Positions 1,645-63,556 of a stretch of DNA of 64,000 nucleotides are shown here, piece after piece. Position 1 is the stretch's first letter, and each line of letters opens with the position of its first letter. This DNA comes from Terriglobia bacterium (GTDB taxonomy: Bacteria > Acidobacteriota > Terriglobia > Bryobacterales > Bryobacteraceae), in NCBI GenBank assembly GCA_021324185.1, contig JAJPJN010000011.1, positions 1 through 64,000 of the forward strand. The letters are read 5' to 3'. A program made the position numbers and the translations under genes. Under the pieces are notes generated by a model, which was not told the DNA's origin, made no database searches, and saw nothing but the letters and a program-made list of their open reading frames with translations.

Positions 1645-4600
1645 GTGCGCGTTGCTCTGCTTGCCTCGATTTGCTTGTTTTCTATTTTCACCGTTTGGGG
1701 CCAGACCGATATTGCTTCACTATCAGGCCGGGTAACGGACCCTTCAGGCGGCGCTATTGTGGGCGCCCAAGTGACCGTTACGAATACAGGCACTGGCGCT
1801 TCAAATCAGATGAAGACGAATGAAGCCGGTCTTTACAACTTTTCTGCTCTTGCGCCTGGCTCCTATGACCTATCCGTGCGGGCCAAAGGATTTCAGAATG
1901 TAGAGCACCGCGGCATTGTTCTGCACGTGGAAGATCGCGCTACGCAGGATGTGTCGCTGCCGGTCGGATCCAGTATTCAAACCGTCGTCGTACAGGCTGA
2001 AGCCACTGAAATCAATACTCAATCCGCCGCAGTGGGAACCGTGGTGTCGCGTGATTTTGTCGCAAATCTTCCGTTGAATGGGCGCAGCATCCAATCCCTG
2101 GTCACACTGACGCCGACAGTTGTGGTAACCCCGGTGAGTTCCGGCAGCCCGGGGCAGTTCAGCATGAACGGCCAGCGGCCCGATGCAAACTACTTCACCG
2201 TGGATGGAGTAAGTGCAAATATCAGCGTGGGTGCGGGGGCAAGCGTGTTGGCCGGTGCATCAGGATCGGGAGTTCAGCCCAGTTCGAGCGGGGGCTTCAA
2301 TAATCTGGCCTCGATCGATGCCATCCAGGAATTCAAAATACAGACTTCCACATTCGCTCCTGAATTTGGCCGCACGCCGGGTGGACAGGTTTCGATTATC
2401 ACGCGCAGCGGAACCAATCAGTTTCATGGGGATGCATTCGATTATCTTCGCAACAATGTGCTGGACGCGAATGACTGGTTTTTGAACAGCATTCCGCCGA
2501 GGACCGGAATTCCCGTGCATCCGCCCGAGCGACAAAACGATTTTGGGGGTGTACTGGGCGGCCCCATCTGGAAAAACAAGCTTTTCTTTTTTGCGTCATA
2601 TGAAGGCGTCCGTTTGGTGCAGCCGACTCCACTGCTCAAACAAGTGCCATCACTATGCGCTCGCGGGGACGGGCCATGCCCGGCAGGCGCCAAGCCGGCC
2701 GTGCCTGCTATTCAACCTGTGCTTCATGCTTATCCACTTCCTACCGCTGGTGGGTGCGGCAGCGCGCTCCCTCCCACGTCCGATCCGTTGCTGAGCCCAT
2801 TCTGCCAAGGTTATTCATCAACGGTGAATATGGATACCGGCAGCATTCGCGCCGACTACTATCTGAACAGCAGATTCAATGTGTTCTTCCGCTGGGTTGA
2901 TTCCCCGTCAATTTCGAAAGCACGGAGCGCAAACGCTACCTCGCTTTTTGTAACAGAACCGGGATGGACTTCGACCACAGCCCGAGGAGTCTATATCATT
3001 AATCCCGCTCTGGTCAACGATTTTCGTTTTAATTACAGCGTGGCGACGGGTTACGCGTACAGCATTCTTGACGCCTTCGGAGGAGCCGTACCGATCCCGA
3101 CAACCAACACGGCTATTTTTCCGCAGCTCACGCTGCCAAATGTTGGAACGCTCACTCCATCCGATACGCGGTTCTTTATCACTTACACACCGGGGTCATC
3201 GTGGCGGGACGGCGAGGAGACTAATAACCAGGCAAAGCAATGGAATTATGTGGACAGCTTGAGTTGGACGGCCGGAACACATGAAATGAAGTTCGGTGTC
3301 GATTTCCGGCGGTTGGCGCCCGTCCAGGCGCGCGCCCCGTATCAACAAAGTTATACCTTCAACAACTCCGCCGCGATGAACAATGGCATCGCCAATACGT
3401 ATCTCTCATTGATCAACCCGTACACAGTTTCGCTTCTATACAACTTGAGCTTGTACGCGCAAGATACGTGGAAAGTTAGGCCGCGCTTGACTATGACGTA
3501 TGGATTACGCTGGGAATTCAATCCGGCGCCTGGAACGCTCGATAACGTTCCCGACCTTGGATTTACGCAGGTGAGCTATTCCAACTTAGCAGCGACGCAA
3601 GTGGCTCCGATCGGCTCGCCGATTTACAAGACACAATGGAATGCATTCGCACCGCGAATAGGAATTGCGTATCAGCTTTCGAACAATCCCGCGCGAGCCA
3701 CGGTAGTTCGCGCCGGATTCGGAATTTTTTACGACACGACCGGCTATTACTCCAATATTTCAGCGTTGAACGGATCGAGTGCTTCTCTGTCCAACGTGAC
3801 CTTCCCGGCGACGCCATTTCAGCAGGACCCGCGTAATATCAATCCAAATCCAAACACCGCTCCGTGGCCCAATGTTGAAAGCACTATCCCGAACCTGCGC
3901 TTGCCAAAGGTTTATCAGATGAATGTCGCGCTCGAACAATCGTTCGGCGCCGCCAATCTGTTTACGGTGACATATGCGGGCGCCGTGGGGAGGAACCTGT
4001 TTGTCACTCAGGCGTTTGCTGCTCCAAACGCCAACCTGCCACAGGGCTTTTTAGCCATCACGAACGCCGGCACATCAGACTACCATTCGCTGCAAGCGCT
4101 TTATCAGCGGCGTTTGTCTAAAGGCCTGCAGGCGATGGCGTCATACACCTGGTCTCATGCCATCGATAACGGCTCGAGTTCCAACTACACTCTGCCGAAT
4201 AATACGATTGAATCGCCCTCCAACGAGCGCGCCAGTTCGGATTTCGACGTCCGCCATTCCTTCCAGGCTGCGATCACCTACAGCGTGCCCAATCACAGCC
4301 AGAACCGTTTTCTGCATGCAGTCGCAAGCGGCTGGGGGACGGATTTTATGTTCCGCACACGCACTGCTCCGCCGATCAACATCACCGACAACGCTGTCTA
4401 TTTCTCGCAACTGTTGCCCGGCAACCAAATTGTGGAGCGGCCGAATATTGTGCCCGGCCAACCACTCTTGCTGTATGGCGCGGCTTGCGCTGCTGCATAT
4501 AAAATTGCGGCCTGTCCGGGCGGAAAGGGAATCAACAAAGCCGGGTTGACCGCTCCGATTCCGGGCGTTCAAGGAGACCTGCCGCGCAATGCGCTGAGAG

Positions 4601-4878
4601 GTTTCGGCTGGAGTGAACTGGATTTCACCTTGCGGCGGCAATTCCCAATTTATGAGCGGGTAGCGTTGCAATTTCGCGCGGACATTTTCAACGTGACTAA
4701 TACTCCGTATTTTGCTTTGACAGGAAACTCATTGAATTTCGCAAATGCAGCTTTTGGCGTCTCATCGGCAATGTTGAACAATGCGTTGTTTGCCTCCGGC
4801 ACGGTTGCCGGGTTCAACCCGCTATACCAAATCGGGGGACCGCGCTCAATCCAGCTTTCTCTAAAGCTGGTGTTTTAA
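1645..4878 (+). CDS. Oar-like TonB-dependent outer-membrane receptor with carboxypeptidase-regulatory domain
   Basis: The GTG start at 1645 has a strong upstream GGAGGGG and gives a clean signal peptide (MRVALLASICLFSIFTVWGQ). After it come a carboxypeptidase-regulatory-like beta fold (SLSGRVTDPSGGAIVGAQVTV, then the YNFSALAPGSYDL turn) and a plug domain (DFVANLPLNGRSIQSLV, QFSMNGQRPDANYFTVDG). A long outer-membrane beta-barrel ends in a terminal phenylalanine (LSLKLVF). The family imports or binds large substrates at the outer membrane using TonB energy, and it is strongly expanded in Acidobacteriota. The ligand is unknown. The gene diverges from the cyclodeaminase/peptidase pair, which hints at peptides, but weakly. 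Length is about 1077 aa from the preferred start. Confidence 0.9.
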   Translation: MRVALLASICLFSIFTVWGQTDIASLSGRVTDPSGGAIVGAQVTVTNTGTGASNQMKTNEAGLYNFSALAPGSYDLSVRAKGFQNVEHRGIVLHVEDRATQDVSLPVGSSIQTVVVQAEATEINTQSAAVGTVVSRDFVANLPLNGRSIQSLVTLTPTVVVTPVSSGSPGQFSMNGQRPDANYFTVDGVSANISVGAGASVLAGASGSGVQPSSSGGFNNLASIDAIQEFKIQTSTFAPEFGRTPGGQVSIITRSGTNQFHGDAFDYLRNNVLDANDWFLNSIPPRTGIPVHPPERQNDFGGVLGGPIWKNKLFFFASYEGVRLVQPTPLLKQVPSLCARGDGPCPAGAKPAVPAIQPVLHAYPLPTAGGCGSALPPTSDPLLSPFCQGYSSTVNMDTGSIRADYYLNSRFNVFFRWVDSPSISKARSANATSLFVTEPGWTSTTARGVYIINPALVNDFRFNYSVATGYAYSILDAFGGAVPIPTTNTAIFPQLTLPNVGTLTPSDTRFFITYTPGSSWRDGEETNNQAKQWNYVDSLSWTAGTHEMKFGVDFRRLAPVQARAPYQQSYTFNNSAAMNNGIANTYLSLINPYTVSLLYNLSLYAQDTWKVRPRLTMTYGLRWEFNPAPGTLDNVPDLGFTQVSYSNLAATQVAPIGSPIYKTQWNAFAPRIGIAYQLSNNPARATVVRAGFGIFYDTTGYYSNISALNGSSASLSNVTFPATPFQQDPRNINPNPNTAPWPNVESTIPNLRLPKVYQMNVALEQSFGAANLFTVTYAGAVGRNLFVTQAFAAPNANLPQGFLAITNAGTSDYHSLQALYQRRLSKGLQAMASYTWSHAIDNGSSSNYTLPNNTIESPSNERASSDFDVRHSFQAAITYSVPNHSQNRFLHAVASGWGTDFMFRTRTAPPINITDNAVYFSQLLPGNQIVERPNIVPGQPLLLYGAACAAAYKIAACPGGKGINKAGLTAPIPGVQGDLPRNALRGFGWSELDFTLRRQFPIYERVALQFRADIFNVTNTPYFALTGNSLNFANAAFGVSSAMLNNALFASGTVAGFNPLYQIGGPRSIQLSLKLVF

Positions 4879-4907
4879 GTTCATAGTTTTCTATGGAAAC
4901 GTGGCAG

Positions 4908-5369
4908 CTATAGCTCCTTGGCCATGCGCCAATGGACGAGAGAATCGAACAACGTACTTGTTTGGCCAAGGAGTTGATAATTGTGAGTCTTGTAGAAGGG
5001 GATAGCCTCTTCGCGGGCGTTTAGAACAATTCGCCTGGCGCCGTGGCTGCGAGCGTTTGCTTCAAGCTCTCGCAAGATCAGGCTACCGATGCCACGCCGG
5101 GCGTAAGCTTTCTCAACAGCCATATAGCGGATCTGAGCCTCTTCCGGCGAGTTGTAATGGAGGCGCCCAACGCCAACCAGAAGCGCGCCGTCTTGCCAAG
5201 CCATGATATGGAAGGCATTTTGTTCATGCTCGTCTTGTCCACTTTCGCGCGCCCGGGTCCAAGGTTCGCGAAGAATACGCCAGCGAAGGTCGTAATAGAG
5301 CTGAAAATCCTGCTCCGTTACCGGCTGGCGCAATTCAATTTTCACCGAACAGTCCATTTTACGCTGCAA
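4908..5369 (-). CDS. GNAT-family N-acetyltransferase
   Basis: A 153-aa single-domain GNAT protein. The acetyl-CoA-binding motif A is visible as IRYMAVEKAYARRGIGSLILREL (the R-x-x-G-I/G core reads RRGIGS), followed by motif B (RIVLNAREEAIPFYKTHNYQLLG), with the Tyr typical of the proton donor in FYKTHNY. The N-terminal FQLYYDLRWRILREPW resembles ElaA-like and related small acetyltransferases. The acceptor is unknown. It lies 23 bases downstream of the PLP-dependent lyase on the same strand, so the two are probably cotranscribed; it converges with the TonB receptor gene. Confidence 0.85.
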   Translation of the reverse strand: MQRKMDCSVKIELRQPVTEQDFQLYYDLRWRILREPWTRARESGQDEHEQNAFHIMAWQDGALLVGVGRLHYNSPEEAQIRYMAVEKAYARRGIGSLILRELEANARSHGARRIVLNAREEAIPFYKTHNYQLLGQTSTLFDSLVHWRMAKEL

Positions 5370-5392
5370 TCCCGGAATGGGACGCGTTGTGC

Positions 5393-6574
5393 CTACGCCC
5401 GCCCGGCCCCGTTTGCGGCAAAGTGCTCTACTACCTTATCGGTGGCTTTGAGCCCGCTACCCGTTAGCATTATCGCGACGCGATCACCGCATTCAATGAC
5501 GCCTGCTTCACGAAGCCTCGTGAGTCCAGCCGGAGCGGCAGCGGCTGTTGGCTCTACGTAGACGCCATGCTTGCCAAGCTTCTCGACCGTGTTCCAGACG
5601 GCGTCGTCGTTCACGGTGACAACGACTCCTCTCGATTCGCGAATTGCCTTCAGAATCGTTGCGCCGCGCACCGGCTTCGCAACCGAGATTCCCTCGGCAG
5701 CAGTTGGTTTCTTTTCAGTTTCCGATACATCCATGGAACCCGTTTTCCAGGCGCGATAAATGGGGTCGCAACTGGCGGATTGGACGGCAGCCAGGCGGGG
5801 CATCTTTTGGATAAATCCGGCATTGAGAAGATCGGTAAAGCCAAAGTGTAAGCCCACAAGCAAACTCCCGCCGCCTGCTGGAGTCAGAATCCAATCGGGA
5901 GGTTCCCAAAAGTACTGCTCCGCTAACTCGTACGCTGCAGTTTTCATGCCCACGAGAAAGTAGGGACTCCAGTTATGGCTTGCATAAAAAATGTCACTGG
6001 CGGCTTGCCGGGCGGCCTGGGCCGTGTTCTCTCGAGTGCCGGGGATCTTGATGAGATTCGCCCCGTACAACTGAATTTGTGCGGCTTTTCCGGGCGAGGT
6101 GCTTTCGGGAATGTAGATGTTGGCGCGAATACCTGCAAAGGCTGCATATGCCGCGATAGAAGCTCCGGCATTTCCGGAAGAGTCCTCAATTATTTCAGTG
6201 ATGCGCCATTCCTTCAGTTTGCTCAACATTACGGAACTGCCGCGATCCTTGTACGACCCCGTCGGGCATAAATAATCCAGTTTCAGGGAGGTAAAGCAAC
6301 CATCGAACGGCACGTCGAGAAGCGGCGTGGCGCCCTCACCCAGAGAAATGATGTTTGCCGGATCCTGTATTCCGAGCGCCTCGCAATAGCGCCACACCCC
6401 GCCCGGACGCTGTGCTAAATCTTCGCGCCGAAACATCGCGGGGGAGTTCAGCAGCAGATATCCGCCGCAATTGCATTGCCAGCGAGGTTCAGTTGCTGAA
6501 AACGCACGGGCACAGGTCGAGCAAACCAGCATAGGCGCAGATCCCATTATGTGGAACGAGAACCTTTTGTACAA
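5393..6574 (-). CDS. Threonine synthase-like PLP-dependent enzyme with N-terminal zinc ribbon
   Basis: The N-terminus has a zinc-ribbon-like cysteine set (VCSTCARAF ... WQCNCGG). The fold-type II PLP domain shows the Schiff-base lysine in PTGSYKDRGSS, the SSGNAGASIAAYAA phosphate/substrate loop, and a Gly-rich phosphate-binding TPAGGGSLLVG. That architecture fits threonine synthase or related cysteate/diaminopropionate-type lyases. At 393 aa the length is normal. The start could also be the in-frame ATG at 6547 or 6532; none has a convincing ribosome-binding site. A LysR gene lies directly upstream, and an ATCGGTTA half-site matching the LysR promoter dyad lies between them, suggesting regulation. 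A role in threonine biosynthesis is not supported by neighbours. Confidence 0.8.
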   Translation of the reverse strand: MYKRFSFHIMGSAPMLVCSTCARAFSATEPRWQCNCGGYLLLNSPAMFRREDLAQRPGGVWRYCEALGIQDPANIISLGEGATPLLDVPFDGCFTSLKLDYLCPTGSYKDRGSSVMLSKLKEWRITEIIEDSSGNAGASIAAYAAFAGIRANIYIPESTSPGKAAQIQLYGANLIKIPGTRENTAQAARQAASDIFYASHNWSPYFLVGMKTAAYELAEQYFWEPPDWILTPAGGGSLLVGLHFGFTDLLNAGFIQKMPRLAAVQSASCDPIYRAWKTGSMDVSETEKKPTAAEGISVAKPVRGATILKAIRESRGVVVTVNDDAVWNTVEKLGKHGVYVEPTAAAAPAGLTRLREAGVIECGDRVAIMLTGSGLKATDKVVEHFAANGAGRA

Positions 6575-55730: not shown

Positions 55731-56540
55731 TCAGATCAATTCACTTCCCGCTTCAAACCGAATCACGGTTCTGCCGAGGTGAATTTCATCGCCCGAACGC
55801 AGCAGCGTCCCGCGCGTGCCGCGATGCACAGGTTGACTCAGGCCGTCGCGAACAATCCAGATGCCGCAGTTTGCCTCGCCTTTGTAGTTGCGGTCATTGA
55901 AAATGCGGCACTCACCCGTTCTCGACGACCGGAGGATATGCGCGTGCTCGCGGGAGACCGTTGCGTTGCGCTCGTTGTCTTCCGTAAACGCCAGATCGTT
56001 GCGGCGCGACGGGCCCCCGGCTCGAAAAACCTCCACTGTGCGGCCGATGTTCAATCTCGCCTTATTGATCGGCAGCTCCTGCACATTCGCCACGCCTTCT
56101 ATCACGACCAGCCTCGCGGCGCGGGCTTGCTCGCCGGCATTTTGCGGCTCCGGCTTTTGCTGCGCCGTCTCAACGACAATCCACGGTTCGCGCTCGAGCG
56201 GCAGGACAGACGTCGTTTGAATCTCCACCTGCAGATCGGCGGGAAAGCGATAGTGCGAGCGGCTTAAAGAGGTCTTGATTTCCTGTGCGAAGTAGGCGGC
56301 GAGAAAATCGCCTTCGAAAACATCGGCCTGATTCTCAGGCACGCCGCGTAGTTGAATGCGAATCAGGTTGAACGGGAATACGTGCTTGCCGCCGGCGCGG
56401 TGACTCTTTGCTTTCACTGCATCCAGCACCGCAATCCGAATCTCGGCCATTTCCGGGGCATCTTTCGACAGCCGGTTTGCGCCAAACGGCGTCTCAAAAA
56501 TCGCTTTGCCGAGTTTTTCAAAGACGGTGGAGATGGCCAT
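55731..56540 (-). CDS. FHA-domain protein (second of the operon)
   Basis: The 269-aa protein starts two bases after the RodA-PBP2 stop, preceded by GGAGG ten bases upstream. The N-terminal 130 residues form an alpha/beta part related to that of the first FHA protein of this operon (FPFNLIRIQLRGVPENQADVF). The C-terminal FHA domain has LNIGRTVEVF and the phosphothreonine-binding SREHAHI, but the usual N-G that follows the core is replaced by a longer loop (NYKGEANCGIW). FHA proteins bind phosphothreonine, so the likely ligand is a target or form of the operon kinase. It lies last in the operon. Confidence 0.82.
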   Translation of the reverse strand: MAISTVFEKLGKAIFETPFGANRLSKDAPEMAEIRIAVLDAVKAKSHRAGGKHVFPFNLIRIQLRGVPENQADVFEGDFLAAYFAQEIKTSLSRSHYRFPADLQVEIQTTSVLPLEREPWIVVETAQQKPEPQNAGEQARAARLVVIEGVANVQELPINKARLNIGRTVEVFRAGGPSRRNDLAFTEDNERNATVSREHAHILRSSRTGECRIFNDRNYKGEANCGIWIVRDGLSQPVHRGTRGTLLRSGDEIHLGRTVIRFEAGSELI

Positions 56541-56542
56541 TG

Positions 56543-59500
56543 CTACTGAGCCTCCGAGGAATTTGCTTTAATTATCCCCAATTGCTGCGCGGTCTCCACG
56601 ATTTGACGTGCAATCGGCGCTGCAAACCGGGCGCCGTAGCCGCCGTGCTCCACTATCACAGCAAACGCAATCTGCCGGTCCGGTGGTGCGCCATAGGGCG
56701 CGAAGCCGGCAAACCAGGAATGCGGATCGCCTGCGTCCAACTGGGCCGTTCCGGTTTTCCCGGCGACATCAATGCTTATGCCGGCCATCGCACTGCGAGC
56801 CGTTCCGCTTGTCACCACGGATCGCATGGCGCGTTGCAGAAACTCCGCGGAATCCGGAGCCAGAATCGATAGCGGCCGGTCCGTTCGCGTGTTGCTCGCA
56901 TCCATCACCCACCGGCCTTCCGCCATTGTGCCTCCATCGGCGATGGTTGCCGCAACGCGCGCCATCTTAAACGGGGTTGCCAGCAGCGGGCCTTGTCCGT
57001 AGGCGGCGAAGGGCATCATCTTTTTCAGATCCTTCAGCTCGCCTGATGGGATGCCCAACAATTCCGTTGTGTCGCGCAGCGCCTGCGCGCCGACATTGTA
57101 AACGCCGAGTTGCGCAAAATACGCATTGCATGAAACAGTGATCGCCTGTGCCATGTTCAGCGTGCCGTGCGCATGATCCTGAATATCGTCCCGAATCGGG
57201 CGCCTCCAACCCGGGATGATCGTGCCGGCTCTGCCATCGCCCAAGCCGTGGCAGTTGTACGTTTTCTGCGTCGCCCTGGGGTCCAGCCTCAGTGCAGCCA
57301 TGGCCGTAACTAATTTGAATGTCGATCCCGGCGGGTATTGCCCGTAGCGCGCACGGTCCAGCAATTCGTCAGGAGTTGGCGTGCCCGATAGCGGCGCAGG
57401 CCAGCCCACGAGGGCGAGCACATCACCACTGGCCGGGTTCATCACCACCAGCGCGCCTTTCTTGCCGGCGGCTTGTAATTGGTTCCGCAGAATTCCGGTC
57501 GCCTTCAATTGCAGCCGGATATCGATGGTCGTGTGAACGTCGCGATCTCGATTCATCAGCGCTTTGAGAAGCGGATTGCTCTTCTGATGCCGGTAGCGGA
57601 CCACGGGCGCCAAATCCGCATAATCCTTGTAGCCCTGCAACCGCGCATTGGAATCATGCTCGATAAGTGACGAGTTGGTGGCGTGAAAATTCTCACCCGT
57701 GCGCAGATCGCCTAAGAACAACACCAGCGCCGATCCGAACGGATATAGTCTGCTGTCCAGCCGCGGGCAGGCGGCATCGATGTTGATGCCCAATTTTTCA
57801 TATTCGGCGCGGTGCTTTTCCAGTTCCGCCCAGTTGCTTGTGGCAAGCAGTATCCCGTTACGATCGAAAATGTTGCCGCGTGGAATGGAAGCGGCAAGCA
57901 GGTTCAGGCGCGGGTTATGCTGTGGCCGCTTCACTCCATCTTGCGTGAACACATGAGCATCTTTGATCAGCAATGCCTCGTCTTGAACAGCTTCTAACGT
58001 GACTGCACGATAAACCAATGTCACTCCGCAGATGCCCAGCGCGCACGCCAATACAGTTGCGGGTATCTTAAAGAACGTCTTGAGCTCTTCTTCGCCCTCG
58101 CGCTCCTCCGGTTCATCAACCGCTTCGAGCTTAGCGGTCTGATGGGAAATGCCCGCTAGCACGGCGAAGATGAAGAAGTTCGCAAGCATCGCCGTGTTGC
58201 CGGAGCTCAAGAACGGCGACACGACGCCGGAGAGGGGAATCGCGCCCAGGACCCCGCCGGAGATCAACAGCATTTCAGACGAGAGCAGTGATGCGAGTCC
58301 AAGCCCCAAAAACATCGCGTACTCATCCGGCGCGCGCAGCGCGATCCGGAAGCTACGCCGCACCAGCAATGCGAACAACAAAAAGATCGTAAGCACGCCC
58401 GGTAAGCCCCACTCTTCGGCGATTGCGGGCAGCACTAAATCGGTGTGGCCGGCGGGAATTACGCTCGGGTCTCCCCAACCAGGACCAGATCCCCAAGGCC
58501 CTCCCGTAGCAAAGGCCCACAAAGAATGTGCGAGCTGGTCGCCGCCATGCACATTGTTGTCCCACGGCGAGAGCCACATGGCGACGCGGTCCACCACCGT
58601 ATGGGGAGTTCCCAACCGGTAACCGATTGAAACTCCCGCGACCAGCGCTGCAACGCCTAAAAGCGCCAGCCCCGCTCGCCCACGCGCAACGGCAAAGAGG
58701 CTCAAGAACACGAAACCCATCACCAGCGCGGGGCCCATGTCCTTCAGCACGAAAAACAACACCAGCGCGCAGGCTACGCCGCACATCACCGGCAGAGCAT
58801 CGCTGAATCGCGGGATGCGCAGCCAGCGCAGCAATGTGATCCGGGGATAAAGATCGCGCAATCGCTCCCAGTTCTGCGCGAAATATCCTGCCATAAAAAA
58901 GACCAGCAGGATCTTGACCGCTTCCACTGGCTGAAATGGTCCAAGATTCACCTTGGCGTCGCTGCCCGTAGGTCCGGAACCCAAAGCGAGCAGCGCGATA
59001 AACAGCGCGAGCGCCGCTAACAGCGGTGTGTAAACCCAGCGCGAATAGCGGCGGTAGTGAAATGCCCGGAAAAGCGGGAATAGAAGCGTGGCGCAGCCGG
59101 CCACAACTCCCCAGGCGAATTTCTGAAATTCGAGTGTGTCGCGCAGCGGGTCGCGCAGACTAATCATCAGAATCAAGCCCAAGCCCGTGAGCACGTGCAG
59201 CGCGGGTAAGATGGCGCCGTCGCCGCGAAAGCGGAACAAGCGCCAGGCGAAGTGAACAAACCAGAAGGCCGCTAGATAAGCTCCAGCCCAAATGGCGAAT
59301 CTCTTCGTAAATTCTCGCGGTGTCCGAACGATCAGCAGCGGCTTGAGCCTGGCTAACGGCATCAGCCGGGTATGTGCATCGGAATTGGGCAGACGAACAT
59401 GCGCTAGCGCCCCGACGTTCGGCAACGGCTTGTGCCGCAGCGAATAGTCATAGATCTGTTGCGCCAGCGCTGCCCGCTCATTTCCGTCAGCCACCATTTG

Positions 59501-59752
59501 TAAGGCAGGCAGTAGCTGATCCGGGTTTTGGAGTGTGTTTACATTCAGCAATTCGCCGCGCTGTAAGCGCTCTTGCAGTTCCGGAAAGTCTTGCGTCTTG
59601 GCAAAAAAAACAGCCACAAGCCCGCAAGCGACGACGAGCGAAGCTCCGCTTAGCCAAAAGAACTCACGTCTCCGCTCAATAGGCTTGGCCGGTGATTGAG
59701 CGCCGGCCAGCTTCGCCGTAAGCGCGCTCTCCCACGTTCTGGTTACAGCCAT
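56543..59752 (-). CDS. RodA/FtsW-PBP2 fusion: SEDS glycosyltransferase joined to class B PBP transpeptidase
   Basis: The 1069-aa protein combines both halves of a peptidoglycan synthase. An N-terminal span (about 32-50) is followed by an extracytoplasmic stretch of about 100 residues. The SEDS domain follows (about 150-535): FQPVEAVK at 273-280, KDMGPALV with Asp338, the GHTD loop near 435-438 and IPLSGVVSPFLSSG near 505-518. An acidic linker (about 540-556) and a single span (about 564-585) lead to the PBP domain with SxxK (GSTFK, Ser810/Lys813), SxN (Ser874-Cys-Asn876) and KTG (999-1001). All catalytic motifs of the transpeptidase are present. In most bacteria these halves are two proteins that form a complex. 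It is preceded by the kinase gene (six-base gap) and followed by the FHA gene (two bases). Confidence 0.93.
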   Translation of the reverse strand: MAVTRTWESALTAKLAGAQSPAKPIERRREFFWLSGASLVVACGLVAVFFAKTQDFPELQERLQRGELLNVNTLQNPDQLLPALQMVADGNERAALAQQIYDYSLRHKPLPNVGALAHVRLPNSDAHTRLMPLARLKPLLIVRTPREFTKRFAIWAGAYLAAFWFVHFAWRLFRFRGDGAILPALHVLTGLGLILMISLRDPLRDTLEFQKFAWGVVAGCATLLFPLFRAFHYRRYSRWVYTPLLAALALFIALLALGSGPTGSDAKVNLGPFQPVEAVKILLVFFMAGYFAQNWERLRDLYPRITLLRWLRIPRFSDALPVMCGVACALVLFFVLKDMGPALVMGFVFLSLFAVARGRAGLALLGVAALVAGVSIGYRLGTPHTVVDRVAMWLSPWDNNVHGGDQLAHSLWAFATGGPWGSGPGWGDPSVIPAGHTDLVLPAIAEEWGLPGVLTIFLLFALLVRRSFRIALRAPDEYAMFLGLGLASLLSSEMLLISGGVLGAIPLSGVVSPFLSSGNTAMLANFFIFAVLAGISHQTAKLEAVDEPEEREGEEELKTFFKIPATVLACALGICGVTLVYRAVTLEAVQDEALLIKDAHVFTQDGVKRPQHNPRLNLLAASIPRGNIFDRNGILLATSNWAELEKHRAEYEKLGINIDAACPRLDSRLYPFGSALVLFLGDLRTGENFHATNSSLIEHDSNARLQGYKDYADLAPVVRYRHQKSNPLLKALMNRDRDVHTTIDIRLQLKATGILRNQLQAAGKKGALVVMNPASGDVLALVGWPAPLSGTPTPDELLDRARYGQYPPGSTFKLVTAMAALRLDPRATQKTYNCHGLGDGRAGTIIPGWRRPIRDDIQDHAHGTLNMAQAITVSCNAYFAQLGVYNVGAQALRDTTELLGIPSGELKDLKKMMPFAAYGQGPLLATPFKMARVAATIADGGTMAEGRWVMDASNTRTDRPLSILAPDSAEFLQRAMRSVVTSGTARSAMAGISIDVAGKTGTAQLDAGDPHSWFAGFAPYGAPPDRQIAFAVIVEHGGYGARFAAPIARQIVETAQQLGIIKANSSEAQ

Positions 59753-59758
59753 CTGACG

Positions 59759-61738
59759 CTACCTATAAACTCGCCAGTGAATGCTGAGGTGCTTGGGGCG
59801 CGCATGAGGCGTTGGGCCGATGTGCAAAACCGCGGTTTCCAATTTCACTTGCTCTGCTTGATCTTCCTGCAGCTTTTCAAGCGCCTCGCTGACGTTCGAA
59901 AAGCCGGCAATCGGTTCGTAGAGGTTGCGCGCGCGGTCCATGTCATCGCGCGCCATAGTCAGCCATTTAGCCCGCTCGGCCGTTGCCGAAGCCTGCAGTT
60001 TTTTTACTTTCGCTAGCTCAGTCTCGGCGCGGAACAGGTAGCCGTCGCCTTCCTCGGCCGCTTCTCTCGGGCCTAATTTGTAACCCAATCGCTCTGCCTG
60101 ATGCAACTCCGCAACGGCCTTACCCACGTTGTGGAAATAAGTAACGTAGGCGCGAGCCAGCGCCAGATGCGGATCCGGGGATTGCGGGATGTACGAGACG
60201 GCCTGATCGAAATATTGCATGCCTGCCTGCCCGCCATTCCGCGCCAGCGCAATATAGCCGTTCACGAGCGCGAGTTTCCCCTTGCTTGTCGTGTCGTCCG
60301 GATTAATATTCAAGGCTCTCTCGAGGCAGAGCCTCGCCTTGGCCCAACCAAAATCTTTCAGGCGCGCATCGGTGCTGCCGCGGAACTGATCCAGAATGTT
60401 GTCTGCCGCATTCAGCAGGTTGTTTCGCATGAACACATCCAAATCGGCAACCGGAGCCAATTGCCTCAATATGCCGCCGCGCTCTTTCAGTTGTTTGTAT
60501 AAAGTCCAGTCCGCGTCAATAACGGAGGAATTCTGGTGGGCGTAGTCCTTGCCGATTCGTAACTTCGCGGCAGAAGTCCAGAACCAGTAGTAATAAGTAA
60601 GTGGGATCAGGATCAGAAGTCCGGCCAGAATGCCGGCCAGCAAAGCGATGGCGATGTTATAAAACTCAGTCAACTTCCGCTTTGCTTTGACCGGTACGGA
60701 TTTTGTGGCTGCCTTCACCGTTGCCTTAGTGGGCGCGCCGTTCGATGCGGGCAAACCGTTCTTAACGGCGGTTGCATTCGCATCCCACGCGGGCTGCCGC
60801 TCGCTCTCTGCCGCCGTGGCCTGTCTTTTCAGAAAGGCCTGCAGATCGCTTTCAAATGCCTGTGCGGAGCTGTATCGTCTCTCGATAGCGGCCGCCAATG
60901 ATTTCGCTACAATCGCCTTCAATGCCGCCGGGCAACTTTCTGGGAGCGCTCGCGGTGGGCGCCGCGATTGGATGAGGTTTTCCAGCCTCCGCGTATCCTG
61001 TGCCTGATAAGGCGGCATGCCGGCAAGCATCTCGTAAAGACTTACACCTAGCGCCCATAAGTCGGCGTGCTGATCTACTTGCGACTTGCTAATTCGTTCC
61101 GGCGAGCAGTAACTGGGGCTGCCTAAGTTGTGATGTGTCAGGTTGTGTGTCGAAGTGATAACCTTCGCTATGCCGAAATCGAGCAGCCGTAACTCATCGT
61201 GCGGGCTGATCTGCACGTTAGATGGTTTAATATCGCCATGGACAACTGCGGTTCGGCGCCCATCCAGGTCGGATATAAAGGAATGCAGCGTCCGTAATTG
61301 GCTGCAAATCTCAGCGGCATAGCGCGCCGCCCGCTTTGGCTCGATCCGGCCTTCGGCCTGTAGAAGCTCTGCCAGCGTTCGACCTTCGAAGTATTCCATC
61401 GCGACGAAGAAGCAGCCATTCTGCTCGCCGAATTCGTAGATCTCAAGAATGCGGCGGTCGAGCGCGTGCAATTGCTTCTGCAGCAGAGCGCCGCGCCGCT
61501 CGGCCTCGATGATGGTTTGCGTGTAGTCGTCGCTCGAGTGTTCGATCAGCTTTAAAACAACGGTTCGCCCGGCCTCGGTATCGCGGGCCAGATATACGTC
61601 GGTCATGCTGCGGCTCAGTTTGCGCGTGATCTCATATTTCCCGAATGTCTTCAGGAAGCCGCGCGACCCGGGTGGCGCTGCAGGCGAACCCGGCTGCCCC
61701 ACGTCGCCTAACGCCAAAACCGCTGTATCCCGATGCAT
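59759..61738 (-). CDS. Membrane Ser/Thr protein kinase (Pkn-like) with C-terminal extracytoplasmic domain
   Basis: Starts at ATG 61738 (or GTG 61702, which would avoid the 31-base overlap with the phosphatase). The kinase has the beta-3 lysine (VVLKLIE, Lys63), the catalytic loop as VVHGDIKPSN (HGD in place of HRD, Asp169), DFG (187-189) and the YCSPERIS activation-loop end. The glycine-rich loop is degenerate (KLSRSMTDVYLA), without the usual glycines. A single span (about 370-400, LLAGILAGLLILIPLTYYYWF) leads to a soluble tail with helical repeat-like segments (ARLKDFGWAKARLCLERAL) rather than PASTA domains. It probably signals with the adjacent PP2C and FHA proteins to control cell-wall synthesis. 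Confidence 0.88.
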   Translation of the reverse strand: MHRDTAVLALGDVGQPGSPAAPPGSRGFLKTFGKYEITRKLSRSMTDVYLARDTEAGRTVVLKLIEHSSDDYTQTIIEAERRGALLQKQLHALDRRILEIYEFGEQNGCFFVAMEYFEGRTLAELLQAEGRIEPKRAARYAAEICSQLRTLHSFISDLDGRRTAVVHGDIKPSNVQISPHDELRLLDFGIAKVITSTHNLTHHNLGSPSYCSPERISKSQVDQHADLWALGVSLYEMLAGMPPYQAQDTRRLENLIQSRRPPRALPESCPAALKAIVAKSLAAAIERRYSSAQAFESDLQAFLKRQATAAESERQPAWDANATAVKNGLPASNGAPTKATVKAATKSVPVKAKRKLTEFYNIAIALLAGILAGLLILIPLTYYYWFWTSAAKLRIGKDYAHQNSSVIDADWTLYKQLKERGGILRQLAPVADLDVFMRNNLLNAADNILDQFRGSTDARLKDFGWAKARLCLERALNINPDDTTSKGKLALVNGYIALARNGGQAGMQYFDQAVSYIPQSPDPHLALARAYVTYFHNVGKAVAELHQAERLGYKLGPREAAEEGDGYLFRAETELAKVKKLQASATAERAKWLTMARDDMDRARNLYEPIAGFSNVSEALEKLQEDQAEQVKLETAVLHIGPTPHARPKHLSIHWRVYR

Positions 61739-62634
61739 AACACGATTCCCAAGATGATGCCGATTAACACCAAACACGCATCTTTAAAGATAGATCGCCA
61801 ACGCCGGCCGCCGGTTCGCACCCTGGTCACGGCATGGCGCTGCCGTGCCGCAGTCGCGTTTGCGGCCATGCGCCCTACGAACTCCGGTCCCGGCACGAAC
61901 ACAACGCTGACGTTATCTTTCCCTCCTGCCCGGTTGGCCGCCTCCACCAGTTGCTGCGCTACAGCGTCCGGATCACCATCATAAGATTCGACAATCGAGG
62001 AGATCTGCGCGGAGGTCAGAGAATCGCTCAGCCCATCACTGCACAGCAGCAGCGCCGCATCCGGCCGGAACAGGAAACTCTTGGTCTCGACAAAATCTGG
62101 ATCATCCGCGCTGCGTATCTGCGACCCCACATCCCGGTACACTTCGTTGCGCCGTGGATGGTGCATTGCTTCTTCCTCGGTCAGTTCGTGATGGTCTTCC
62201 TTCTCTCCCACTGGCGAATGGTCCGAAGTTATCTTGCGCAGTTCTCCGTTCCAGGCCAGGTACAACCGGGAATCACCTACGTGTCCCACGATGACGCGAT
62301 CGTCGCGCGCCACCGCCATAGTCAGAACACAGGCCATGCCGTTGCATTCCGCATGTTCCTGTGCCAGTTGATAGATCTCGTTGTTGGCCGCTGAAATTGC
62401 TTCGCGGACCTTATGCTCCAGATCGCCCTCGCCGTCAAAAGCGGCGAGTCGCTCCTGAACTACTTGCACTGCCGTCTCGGCTGCGGTTTCGCCGGCCGCA
62501 TGCCCTCCCAGACCGTCGGCCACGAGAAACACACCATGCGTCTCATCGGCGAACGCGCGGTCTTCATTCACCGATCGCTGCAGCCCCCGATCTGACGCAA
62601 CTCCTGCCCGCCACATCGTGTTTGTCTCCATCAT
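61708..62634 (-). CDS. PP2C-family Ser/Thr phosphatase with C-terminal membrane span (PstP-like)
   Basis: The 308-aa protein carries the PP2C motifs: SDRGLQRSVNEDRAF (first metal-binding acid), VADGLGGHAAGE, the GHVGDSRLYLAWNGEL strand, LLLCSDGLSDSL and KDNVSVVFV. The metal-binding aspartates (VADG, CSDG, KDN) are complete. One transmembrane span (LVLIGIILGIVLCIGIQRF) ends the protein, so the phosphatase faces the cytoplasm. The ATG at 62634 overlaps the stop of the 29-aa microprotein; a further in-frame ATG at 62616 follows GGAGA at eight bases and may be the real start. It presumably reverses phosphorylation by the adjacent kinase. Confidence 0.92.
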   Translation of the reverse strand: MMETNTMWRAGVASDRGLQRSVNEDRAFADETHGVFLVADGLGGHAAGETAAETAVQVVQERLAAFDGEGDLEHKVREAISAANNEIYQLAQEHAECNGMACVLTMAVARDDRVIVGHVGDSRLYLAWNGELRKITSDHSPVGEKEDHHELTEEEAMHHPRRNEVYRDVGSQIRSADDPDFVETKSFLFRPDAALLLCSDGLSDSLTSAQISSIVESYDGDPDAVAQQLVEAANRAGGKDNVSVVFVPGPEFVGRMAANATAARQRHAVTRVRTGGRRWRSIFKDACLVLIGIILGIVLCIGIQRFWR

Positions 62635-62720
62635 TTTGACCCGCGCCAGTTGAAAAGCACAAACGCGGCGACAAACAGCAGCAGCAGAACATGAACCGGA
62701 TGTGCAGCGAGCAGCGTCAT
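62631..62720 (-). CDS. 29-aa single-span microprotein with ATGA overlaps on both sides
   Basis: This short frame starts with ATG at 62720 and stops with TGA at 62633-62631. Its start overlaps the stop of the FHA gene (ATGA), and its stop overlaps the ATG of the PP2C gene (ATGA). The product is a hydrophobic helix (HVLLLLFVAAFVLF, bracketed by MTLLAAHPV before and NWRGSK after), long enough to cross a membrane once. The flanking basic residues suggest the C-terminus stays in the cytoplasm. No family is recognised. The precise double overlap and the operon position argue strongly that it is translated and may assist the kinase/phosphatase/PBP membrane complex. Confidence 0.6.
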   Translation of the reverse strand: MTLLAAHPVHVLLLLFVAAFVLFNWRGSK

Positions 62721-63556
62721 TTGCGTGCTTCGAACACCAGTGTGATCACTTCGCCGACACCGATATTCGCCCGCCCCGGAAGCATCTCGGGCGCTCCCTT
62801 GCGCAGGCGCTTGCCATCGACGGAGGTTCCGTTTGTGCTCAAATCGGTGATGGAAAAGATGCCGCTAGCCGGATCGCGCTGTATGACCAGGTGCTCGCGC
62901 GACACTTCGTCATTGGTGTACAAGGCAAGGTCCACCGGTTGATCATTGCCGCCGCGCCCAATACGTACTCGATTCTGTGTCATCAAGTACACCTGCGGGC
63001 CGGAATCGTCTTCATAACGAATTTCAGCGAAAGTTGTATCCCCCGTGAAGCCACTTGAGCCCTGAGGGCCCGTGGTTCGATGACCGGTGGTTCGATGACC
63101 GGAAACCACCGGCTCGCGGCCCAGCAGCGTCGTCTTAGTACCCCGGTATCCAGGCTCCGCCGTTTCGTTGAGTTCGGAGTGAATCTCAACGTCGCCCTGC
63201 GGCACTTCCGGTTCAGGCAGGAATTCGATACTCCAGTCGCGGCACGCAATTTTAAATTCCTTTGCCGCCTTCGCTCGCCGCTTAATCCCAAGCACGCCGC
63301 TGTCACTGTTCAGTTCCGCAACGCGCGCGCGCAATGCCTTCTTGGCATCTTCGATCACCAGATCAAAGACACCGCGCAGCATGGAATGATCCTGAGGACT
63401 GAGATAGACCGTAAAGACGCACGGAAGCAGCACGGTGTAGGTCATCTCGAAACGGCCCAACTCCATGTTGCGCATGAGTTCGCCGATGATCACGTTGCCG
63501 TTCAGGCGCGCTTCGCCCAGTTTCGTGCCGCCAAGTTTTGGCTTGTGCTGCCCCAA
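62717..63556 (-). CDS. FhaA-like FHA-domain protein (first gene of the operon)
   Basis: The TTG at 63556 gives a 279-aa protein; a later in-frame GTG or ATG is possible. The N-terminal part (about 1-125; YTVLLPCVFTVYLSPQDHSML) resembles the DUF3662-type domain of mycobacterial FhaA. A variable linker contains a GHRTT duplication. The C-terminal FHA domain has VRIGRGGNDQPVDLAL, SREHLVI and DLSTNGTSVDG, all of the phosphothreonine-contacting residues. FhaA binds phosphorylated partners in cell-wall synthesis, which fits this operon. It overlaps the microprotein by four bases. Confidence 0.85.
   Translation of the reverse strand: MGQHKPKLGGTKLGEARLNGNVIIGELMRNMELGRFEMTYTVLLPCVFTVYLSPQDHSMLRGVFDLVIEDAKKALRARVAELNSDSGVLGIKRRAKAAKEFKIACRDWSIEFLPEPEVPQGDVEIHSELNETAEPGYRGTKTTLLGREPVVSGHRTTGHRTTGPQGSSGFTGDTTFAEIRYEDDSGPQVYLMTQNRVRIGRGGNDQPVDLALYTNDEVSREHLVIQRDPASGIFSITDLSTNGTSVDGKRLRKGAPEMLPGRANIGVGEVITLVFEARK
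63073..63102. repeat. 15-bp tandem duplication inside the fhaA-like gene
   Basis: Two exact copies of GTGGTTCGATGACCG (63073-63087 and 63088-63102) lie in the linker region of the FHA protein and encode two copies of a five-residue unit (H-R-T-T-G). The length is a multiple of three, so the frame is kept. Such a duplication could vary in copy number. Confidence 0.7.

Follow-up and report, generated by a model that had tools for sequence, protein, structure and literature searches.

A conserved gene for a predicted one-helix membrane microprotein between the FhaA-like and PP2C phosphatase genes of an acidobacterial cell-wall signalling operon

In mycobacteria, fhaA and fhaB lie in one operon with rodA, pbpA, pknA, pknB and a phosphatase gene (PMC11898655, PMC6554272). 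Small membrane proteins have also been described around this system. CwsA (rv0008c) is a small transmembrane (TM) protein encoded near the pkn/fha cluster (PMC3989709) and is among the membrane proteins co-purified with mycobacterial FhaA (PMC11898655), so that FhaA may plausibly have a membrane partner. CrgA (rv0011c) is described as a membrane protein interacting with PbpA, FtsI and FtsQ (PMC3989709), and the paper on the GMSC microbiome catalogue reports short conserved TM protein families without annotation (PMC11364881). Among the papers listed by our literature searches, none on a microprotein of the kind described below was found. We identified FhaB loci in five actinobacterial records. 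In Actinomyces oris, FhaA (3297-4004), FhaB (4001-4477) and PP2C (4474-5895) follow one another with 4-nt overlaps on both sides of FhaB. The FhaB N-termini open with a few residues that lead into a TM helix, and a basic flank follows; they contain the motif R-x-x-F/Y-L. The housekeeping fhaA-fhaB-pstP-rodA-pbpA region is also held by plasmid-collection records L165-L169, for example Nocardia farcinica 'plasmid 2' and the 11.9-Mb Nonomuraea 'plasmid I', which look chromosomal in whole or in part.

The window, that is, the whole 64,000-nucleotide stretch of Terriglobia DNA analysed, contains the following operon, with a tRNA-His upstream of the FhaA-like gene:

62717 to 63556, minus strand: FhaA-like FHA-domain protein, 279 aa, TTG start (Pfam FHA, 44.1 bits, cut-off 20.7)
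62717 to 62720, minus strand: ATGA overlap of the FhaA-like stop and the microprotein start (sequence; NTGA overlap in 34 of 54 relatives, starts chosen by eye)
62631 to 62720, minus strand: microprotein gene, predicted one-helix membrane protein, 29 aa (reading frame; counterparts, profile, codon and left-out tests)
62631 to 62634, minus strand: ATGA overlap of the microprotein stop and the first possible PP2C start (sequence; NTGA in 32 of 54 relatives, starts chosen by eye)
61708 to 62634, minus strand: PP2C-type Ser/Thr phosphatase, 308 aa, C-terminal transmembrane helix (Pfam PP2C, 68.9 bits; hydropathy)
59759 to 61777, minus strand: Ser/Thr protein kinase with a TM segment and a TPR-like tail (uncertain start; overlap of the listed GTG with the end of PP2C)
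56543 to 59752, minus strand: FtsW/RodA (SEDS) and penicillin-binding protein (PBP) in a single 1069-aa chain (FTSW_RODA_SPOVE 187-539, Transpeptidase 766-1053)
55731 to 56540, minus strand: second FHA-like protein, last in the operon (weak matches to FHA and FhaB models; synteny)

The microprotein frame runs from an ATG at 62720-62718 to a TGA at 62633-62631 and translates to MTLLAAHPVHVLLLLFVAAFVLFNWRGSK, 29 residues that bear out the preliminary description of a single hydrophobic helix with a basic tail. The same description had the frame begin inside the FhaA-like stop and end inside the phosphatase start, each time in ATGA. Both overlaps are seen: the ATGA at 62720-62717 includes the stop codon (TGA) of the FHA gene upstream, and the one at 62634-62631 includes the earliest ATG at which PP2C could start. 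Since the PP2C gene has another in-frame ATG at 62631, this second overlap is likely rather than certain. The label FhaA-like given to the upstream gene is apt, as its FHA match exceeds the cut-off and its FhaA_N match (17.6 bits, cut-off 25) does not. The phosphatase scores 212.9 bits with the Stp1 model, slightly under the cut-off of 230, and its hydropathy peaks at residue 285. Many relatives have a PP2C of about 410-510 aa, with extra sequence after the TM helix, and in L120 the PP2C frame likewise continues beyond the helix. FtsW/RodA and PBP form one frame in L093 (1097 aa) as in the window; relatives show the two parts adjacent. Searched against Pfam and NCBIfam, the window peptide gave nothing above cut-off (best 12.9 bits against 27, and 6.5 bits against 24, respectively) and no FHA match. 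Among 39 microproteins, the same libraries gave scattered weak matches only, the widest in 4 of 39, with no cut-offs listed for these. Identity with a known family was thus rejected, as the Pfam, NCBIfam and PDB searches yielded nothing common to the microproteins.

To survey the locus, FhaA was searched for in 100 relatives (33 matched), 399 genomes of the class (29 at 1e-20), a named genome collection (30 loci) and 396 genomes of the phylum (9 at 1e-15); the plasmid collection gave no FhaA match. The gap 3' of FhaA was read in the returned loci. Removal of identical FhaA segments left 67 loci, from which L030 (not FhaA) was taken out and to which L151, L152, L210, L211 and L212 were added, giving 71 non-redundant FhaA loci. 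L020, whose contig ends within FhaA, and L030 and L031, which are other FHA proteins, were excluded before counting. L120, in which a microprotein adjoins PP2C and FhaA is lost to the contig end, stands outside the 71. The relatives with FhaA comprise Bryobacterales, Bryobacteraceae, Solibacteraceae, 'Acidobacteriaceae' and Terriglobia MAGs (Acidobacteriota; named genome collection). An intact microprotein frame occupies the same place in 56 of the 71 loci (including L023, a doubtful frame that was left out of profile tests); it is interrupted in L129, unreadable in L095, where the contig ends 195 nt past FhaA, and absent from 13 loci (L016, L017, L024, L025, L027, L040, L044, L059, L085, L134, L151, L210 and L211). 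In the named collection, 27 of 30 loci have it. Its length is 27-35 residues in 52 of 54 measured cases, and the outliers, L012 and L130, have longer tails. In L129, an insertion of about 290 bp splits the gene and leaves an open frame of 149 codons.

An absent or broken frame between intact neighbours, which the preliminary description had named as contrary evidence, is therefore a minority state (13 absences and one interruption), most loci being intact. Where FhaA is present and the microprotein is not, the latter is evidently dispensable. PP2C is also present at these 13 loci except L016 and L211, and L085 has the entire operon. On a tree of FhaA from the 71 loci (L129 labelled as present, L095 unlabelled), presence and absence change 6 times, against a mean of 12.2 when labels are shuffled; 8 of the 13 absences group in a single clade (support 99) and the other 5 are isolated. 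This pattern fits an ancestral microprotein gene with six losses, on a tree whose root is not fixed, and the losses show dispensability in those lineages. Six genomes (G017, G044, G046, G055, G365 and G418) have two FhaA-type genes each. One paralogous FhaA clade is without the microprotein throughout, and the second copy in G044 (L152) retains a divergent one. The order FhaA - microprotein - PP2C - kinase - FtsW/RodA+PBP - FHA is conserved, and FhaA - PP2C - (kinase) - FtsW/RodA - PBP - FHA2 is kept both throughout the family and beyond it, in further families of the phylum. The presence of FtsW/PBP was rejected as a condition for having the microprotein, since operons without it have FtsW/PBP too, except L157.

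Profile searches recover the family at this one place. In 60 relatives, a profile built from 21 microproteins matched 15 genomes at E <= 2.3e-8 (next best 0.011), once per genome and always at the FhaA 3' end; because these genomes were already represented in the profile, what the search adds is the lack of a match anywhere else. A 39-member profile gave 6 matches at E <= 0.001 over the 396 phylum genomes: the window's own, L120, L122 and L123, none of these three being in the profile, and 2 chance matches in unrelated genes. The microproteins of L120, L122 and L123 adjoin PP2C, with FhaA also upstream in L122 and L123. With the window peptide left out, the profile scores it at 28.0 bits, a value that none of 1000 shuffles and none of 127 other N-terminal TM segments reached. 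A core-clade profile recognises L022, L029, L049, L127 and L021 (at most 10 of 1000 shuffles as high); it does not recognise L047, L053, L055, L128, L130-L133, L152 and L212 (48-774 of 1000 shuffles), so that the assignment of such distant members draws on their place, length, overlap and topology. A search for relocated copies in genomes without the microprotein, covering 13 genomes, found none, the best match (E 0.0065) lying within a 550-codon frame; the same search missed the G550, G725 and G762 counterparts and gave E 0.65 at the G652 place, indicating that the profile is blind to microproteins of that type.

The protein sequence is under purifying selection, as differences at codon positions 1, 2 and 3 number 81, 61 and 164 (p = 2.6e-13; 12 pairs, anchored at the start without alignment, including the out-of-register pair L054-L057, which counts against the signal). 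Pooled pN/pS is 0.53 over 27 pairs, with synonymous sites near saturation. The Ka/Ks and conservation check proposed in the preliminary description favours it, frame and overlaps alike recurring in relatives, and its claim of a conserved small membrane protein gene draws support from synteny, codon positions and the left-out profile. The commonest residues are L4, Y5, His/Arg 8, P10, F11, V/L12, L/F15, F18 and the basic tail. Hydropathy is at least 2.1 in 54 of 54 microproteins. The C-terminal flank carries more net positive charge than the N-terminal flank in 48 of 54, which predicts a cytoplasmic C-terminus. The basic tail may in part reflect the PP2C ribosome-binding site, through purine-rich codons. 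Conservation along the helix has a periodicity peak at 100 degrees (permutation p = 0.02 in a post hoc test, not significant in subgroups, p = 0.139 and 0.637), which suggests a single packed face, a post hoc reading that fails in the subgroups.

Short frames are common in the window's ORF list, and the 13 FhaA loci without one could be taken as a sign of a chance frame within a spacer. This reading is scarcely credible. As the preliminary description had argued, a random frame is unlikely to be placed in this way: the frame is conserved in most loci, NTGA overlaps occur at both ends in 21 of 54 (34 with the FhaA stop and 32 with the PP2C start, start codons being chosen by eye from ORF lists), and the profile, codon-position, tree and left-out results all contradict chance, which we regard as ruled out by the profile searches, the codon positions and the left-out score. 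The double overlaps also speak for a coupling device, in which the frame hands translation on from FhaA to PP2C while its peptide is inert. Consistent with this, ribosome-binding-like sequence precedes both starts, the mean anti-Shine-Dalgarno duplex energy being -5.60 before the microprotein (shuffled -4.39) and -6.71 before PP2C (shuffled -5.98), with FhaA interior controls at -3.39. Translational coupling of FhaA, microprotein and PP2C is plausible on these grounds. Coupling is insufficient as the whole explanation, however, because amino acids are kept while third codon positions vary and because the window peptide is recognised by a profile made without it. The microprotein sequence is also retained in L018, L089, L052 and L053 despite loss of the FhaA overlap; in L018 and L089, 253 and 84 nt of extra DNA separate the FhaA stop from an intact frame. 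In 53 loci that have the microprotein, the PP2C match lies a median of 111 nt past the FhaA stop; without it, the distance is -2 to 26 nt in 7 of 9 measurable loci, the exceptions being L134 (56 nt) and L027 (129 nt), with the interrupted L129 left out. The interval thus exists because of the gene, and FhaA and PP2C mostly abut in its absence with no need of a linker frame. We consider an inert coupling device distinctly unlikely.

A regulator or membrane partner dedicated to the PP2C phosphatase alone, which we judge unlikely, would account for two genes that adjoin and usually overlap, for a phosphatase that carries its own TM helix, and for the joint loss of PP2C and microprotein in L016/L098. 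L093 points the opposite way. Here the order is FhaA - microprotein - kinase, PP2C has been lost, and the kinase ATG overlaps the microprotein stop, which argues that the microprotein is not simply a phosphatase subunit. PP2C proteins with a TM helix also occur without the microprotein in L017, L040, L085 and L059; since the helix is found both with and without it, the PP2C helix was rejected as a stand-in for a missing microprotein. Retention in L093 together with the microprotein-free operon of L085 suggests an accessory that is not tied to PP2C alone. We likewise give little credence to a relative of actinobacterial FhaB, either cut down to its N-terminal membrane helix or representing a helix later fused to an FHA domain. 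The shared FhaA-PP2C slot, the equal overlaps in A. oris and the build of the FhaB N-termini speak for it, as does an FhaB N-terminal profile that gives the microproteins a median of 2.20 bits against -0.60 for 127 other N-terminal TM segments, a comparison that ignores the relatedness of the sequences; the best scores fall in the deep branches L026, L049, L047, L127 and L022. Against their own shuffles, however, the microproteins do no better than composition: on average 48% of shuffles score as high, with 3 of 53 microproteins at <=5%. The probability from hhalign against FhaB N-termini is 6%, and in the reverse test 1 of 5 FhaB N-termini reaches <=0.05. The microprotein has no FHA domain, and intermediates were not found among the loci examined. 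The slot is the same and the work probably similar to that of FhaB; scoring in both directions did not show homology to the FhaB helix.

The gene is a genuine and conserved one, encoding a tiny membrane protein kept across several Acidobacteriota families. On balance we favour, with some reserve, a translated one-helix microprotein that is an old accessory of the acidobacterial cell-wall phospho-signalling operon, is coupled to its neighbours and packs against an operon partner; that it is translated and coupled, how it lies in the membrane, what it binds and what it does are inferred. Its most probable function is that of an accessory, embedded in the membrane, to the FhaA/kinase/SEDS-PBP assembly, and the earlier suggestion of a subunit of a kinase/phosphatase/peptidoglycan complex can fairly be drawn from the operon context. 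Under the accessory model, ribosomes finishing FhaA would reinitiate at the microprotein gene and again at PP2C, which would yield the three proteins together. The peptide would insert in the membrane with its basic C-terminus on the cytoplasmic side, and its conserved helix side (about positions 4/5, 8 (His/Arg), 11/12, 15, 18/19, 22/23 and 26) may pack against the transmembrane helix of an operon partner. Since the microprotein can outlast the loss of PP2C, FtsW/RodA-PBP or the kinase would be a likelier partner than the phosphatase. The microprotein may thereby help to anchor or position both FhaA and the kinase at the peptidoglycan synthase. With this finding, a central and widespread operon, in which Ser/Thr phospho-signalling is linked to the synthesis of peptidoglycan, gains a small protein family, which also offers a 30-residue handle on a possible link between cytosolic FhaA and the membrane synthase. 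Standard family libraries miss this family; synteny and codon evidence recover it.

Among known proteins, the closest likeness is to FhaB/FipA (Rv0019c; NCBIfam NF049868), whose gene sits in the FhaA-PP2C slot of an operon with SEDS, PBP and kinases. Both proteins begin with one TM helix followed by basic residues, and the 4-nt overlaps of A. oris FhaB match those of the window microprotein on both sides. FhaB extends into an FHA domain (about 155 aa), whereas the microprotein ends after the helix. We attach only a small chance to the idea that a slot FhaA - X - PP2C predates the split of Acidobacteriota and Actinobacteriota, X being a membrane adaptor helix that stands free as a 30-residue microprotein in Acidobacteriota and serves as the FhaB anchor in Actinobacteriota. 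If true, the helix, not the FHA domain, would be the conserved part tying phospho-signalling to the SEDS-PBP synthase; and if the helix is a functional match of the FhaB anchor, the membrane role of FhaB would be separable from its phospho-binding role. CwsA is likened by description and gene place, both being small TM proteins encoded near fha genes. It has one TM helix, is larger than the microprotein and is encoded outside the FhaA-PP2C gap. The microprotein may do a job analogous to that of the FhaB membrane helix or CwsA, as these may act in actinobacteria. CrgA, with two TM helices and a gene at a different place, is likened by description as a membrane protein. The GMSC families resemble the microprotein, again by description, in being short, conserved, transmembrane and uncharacterised. 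By these comparisons, the microprotein would belong with the small TM accessories of cell-wall signalling operons, with its gene in the slot that FhaB occupies in actinobacteria.
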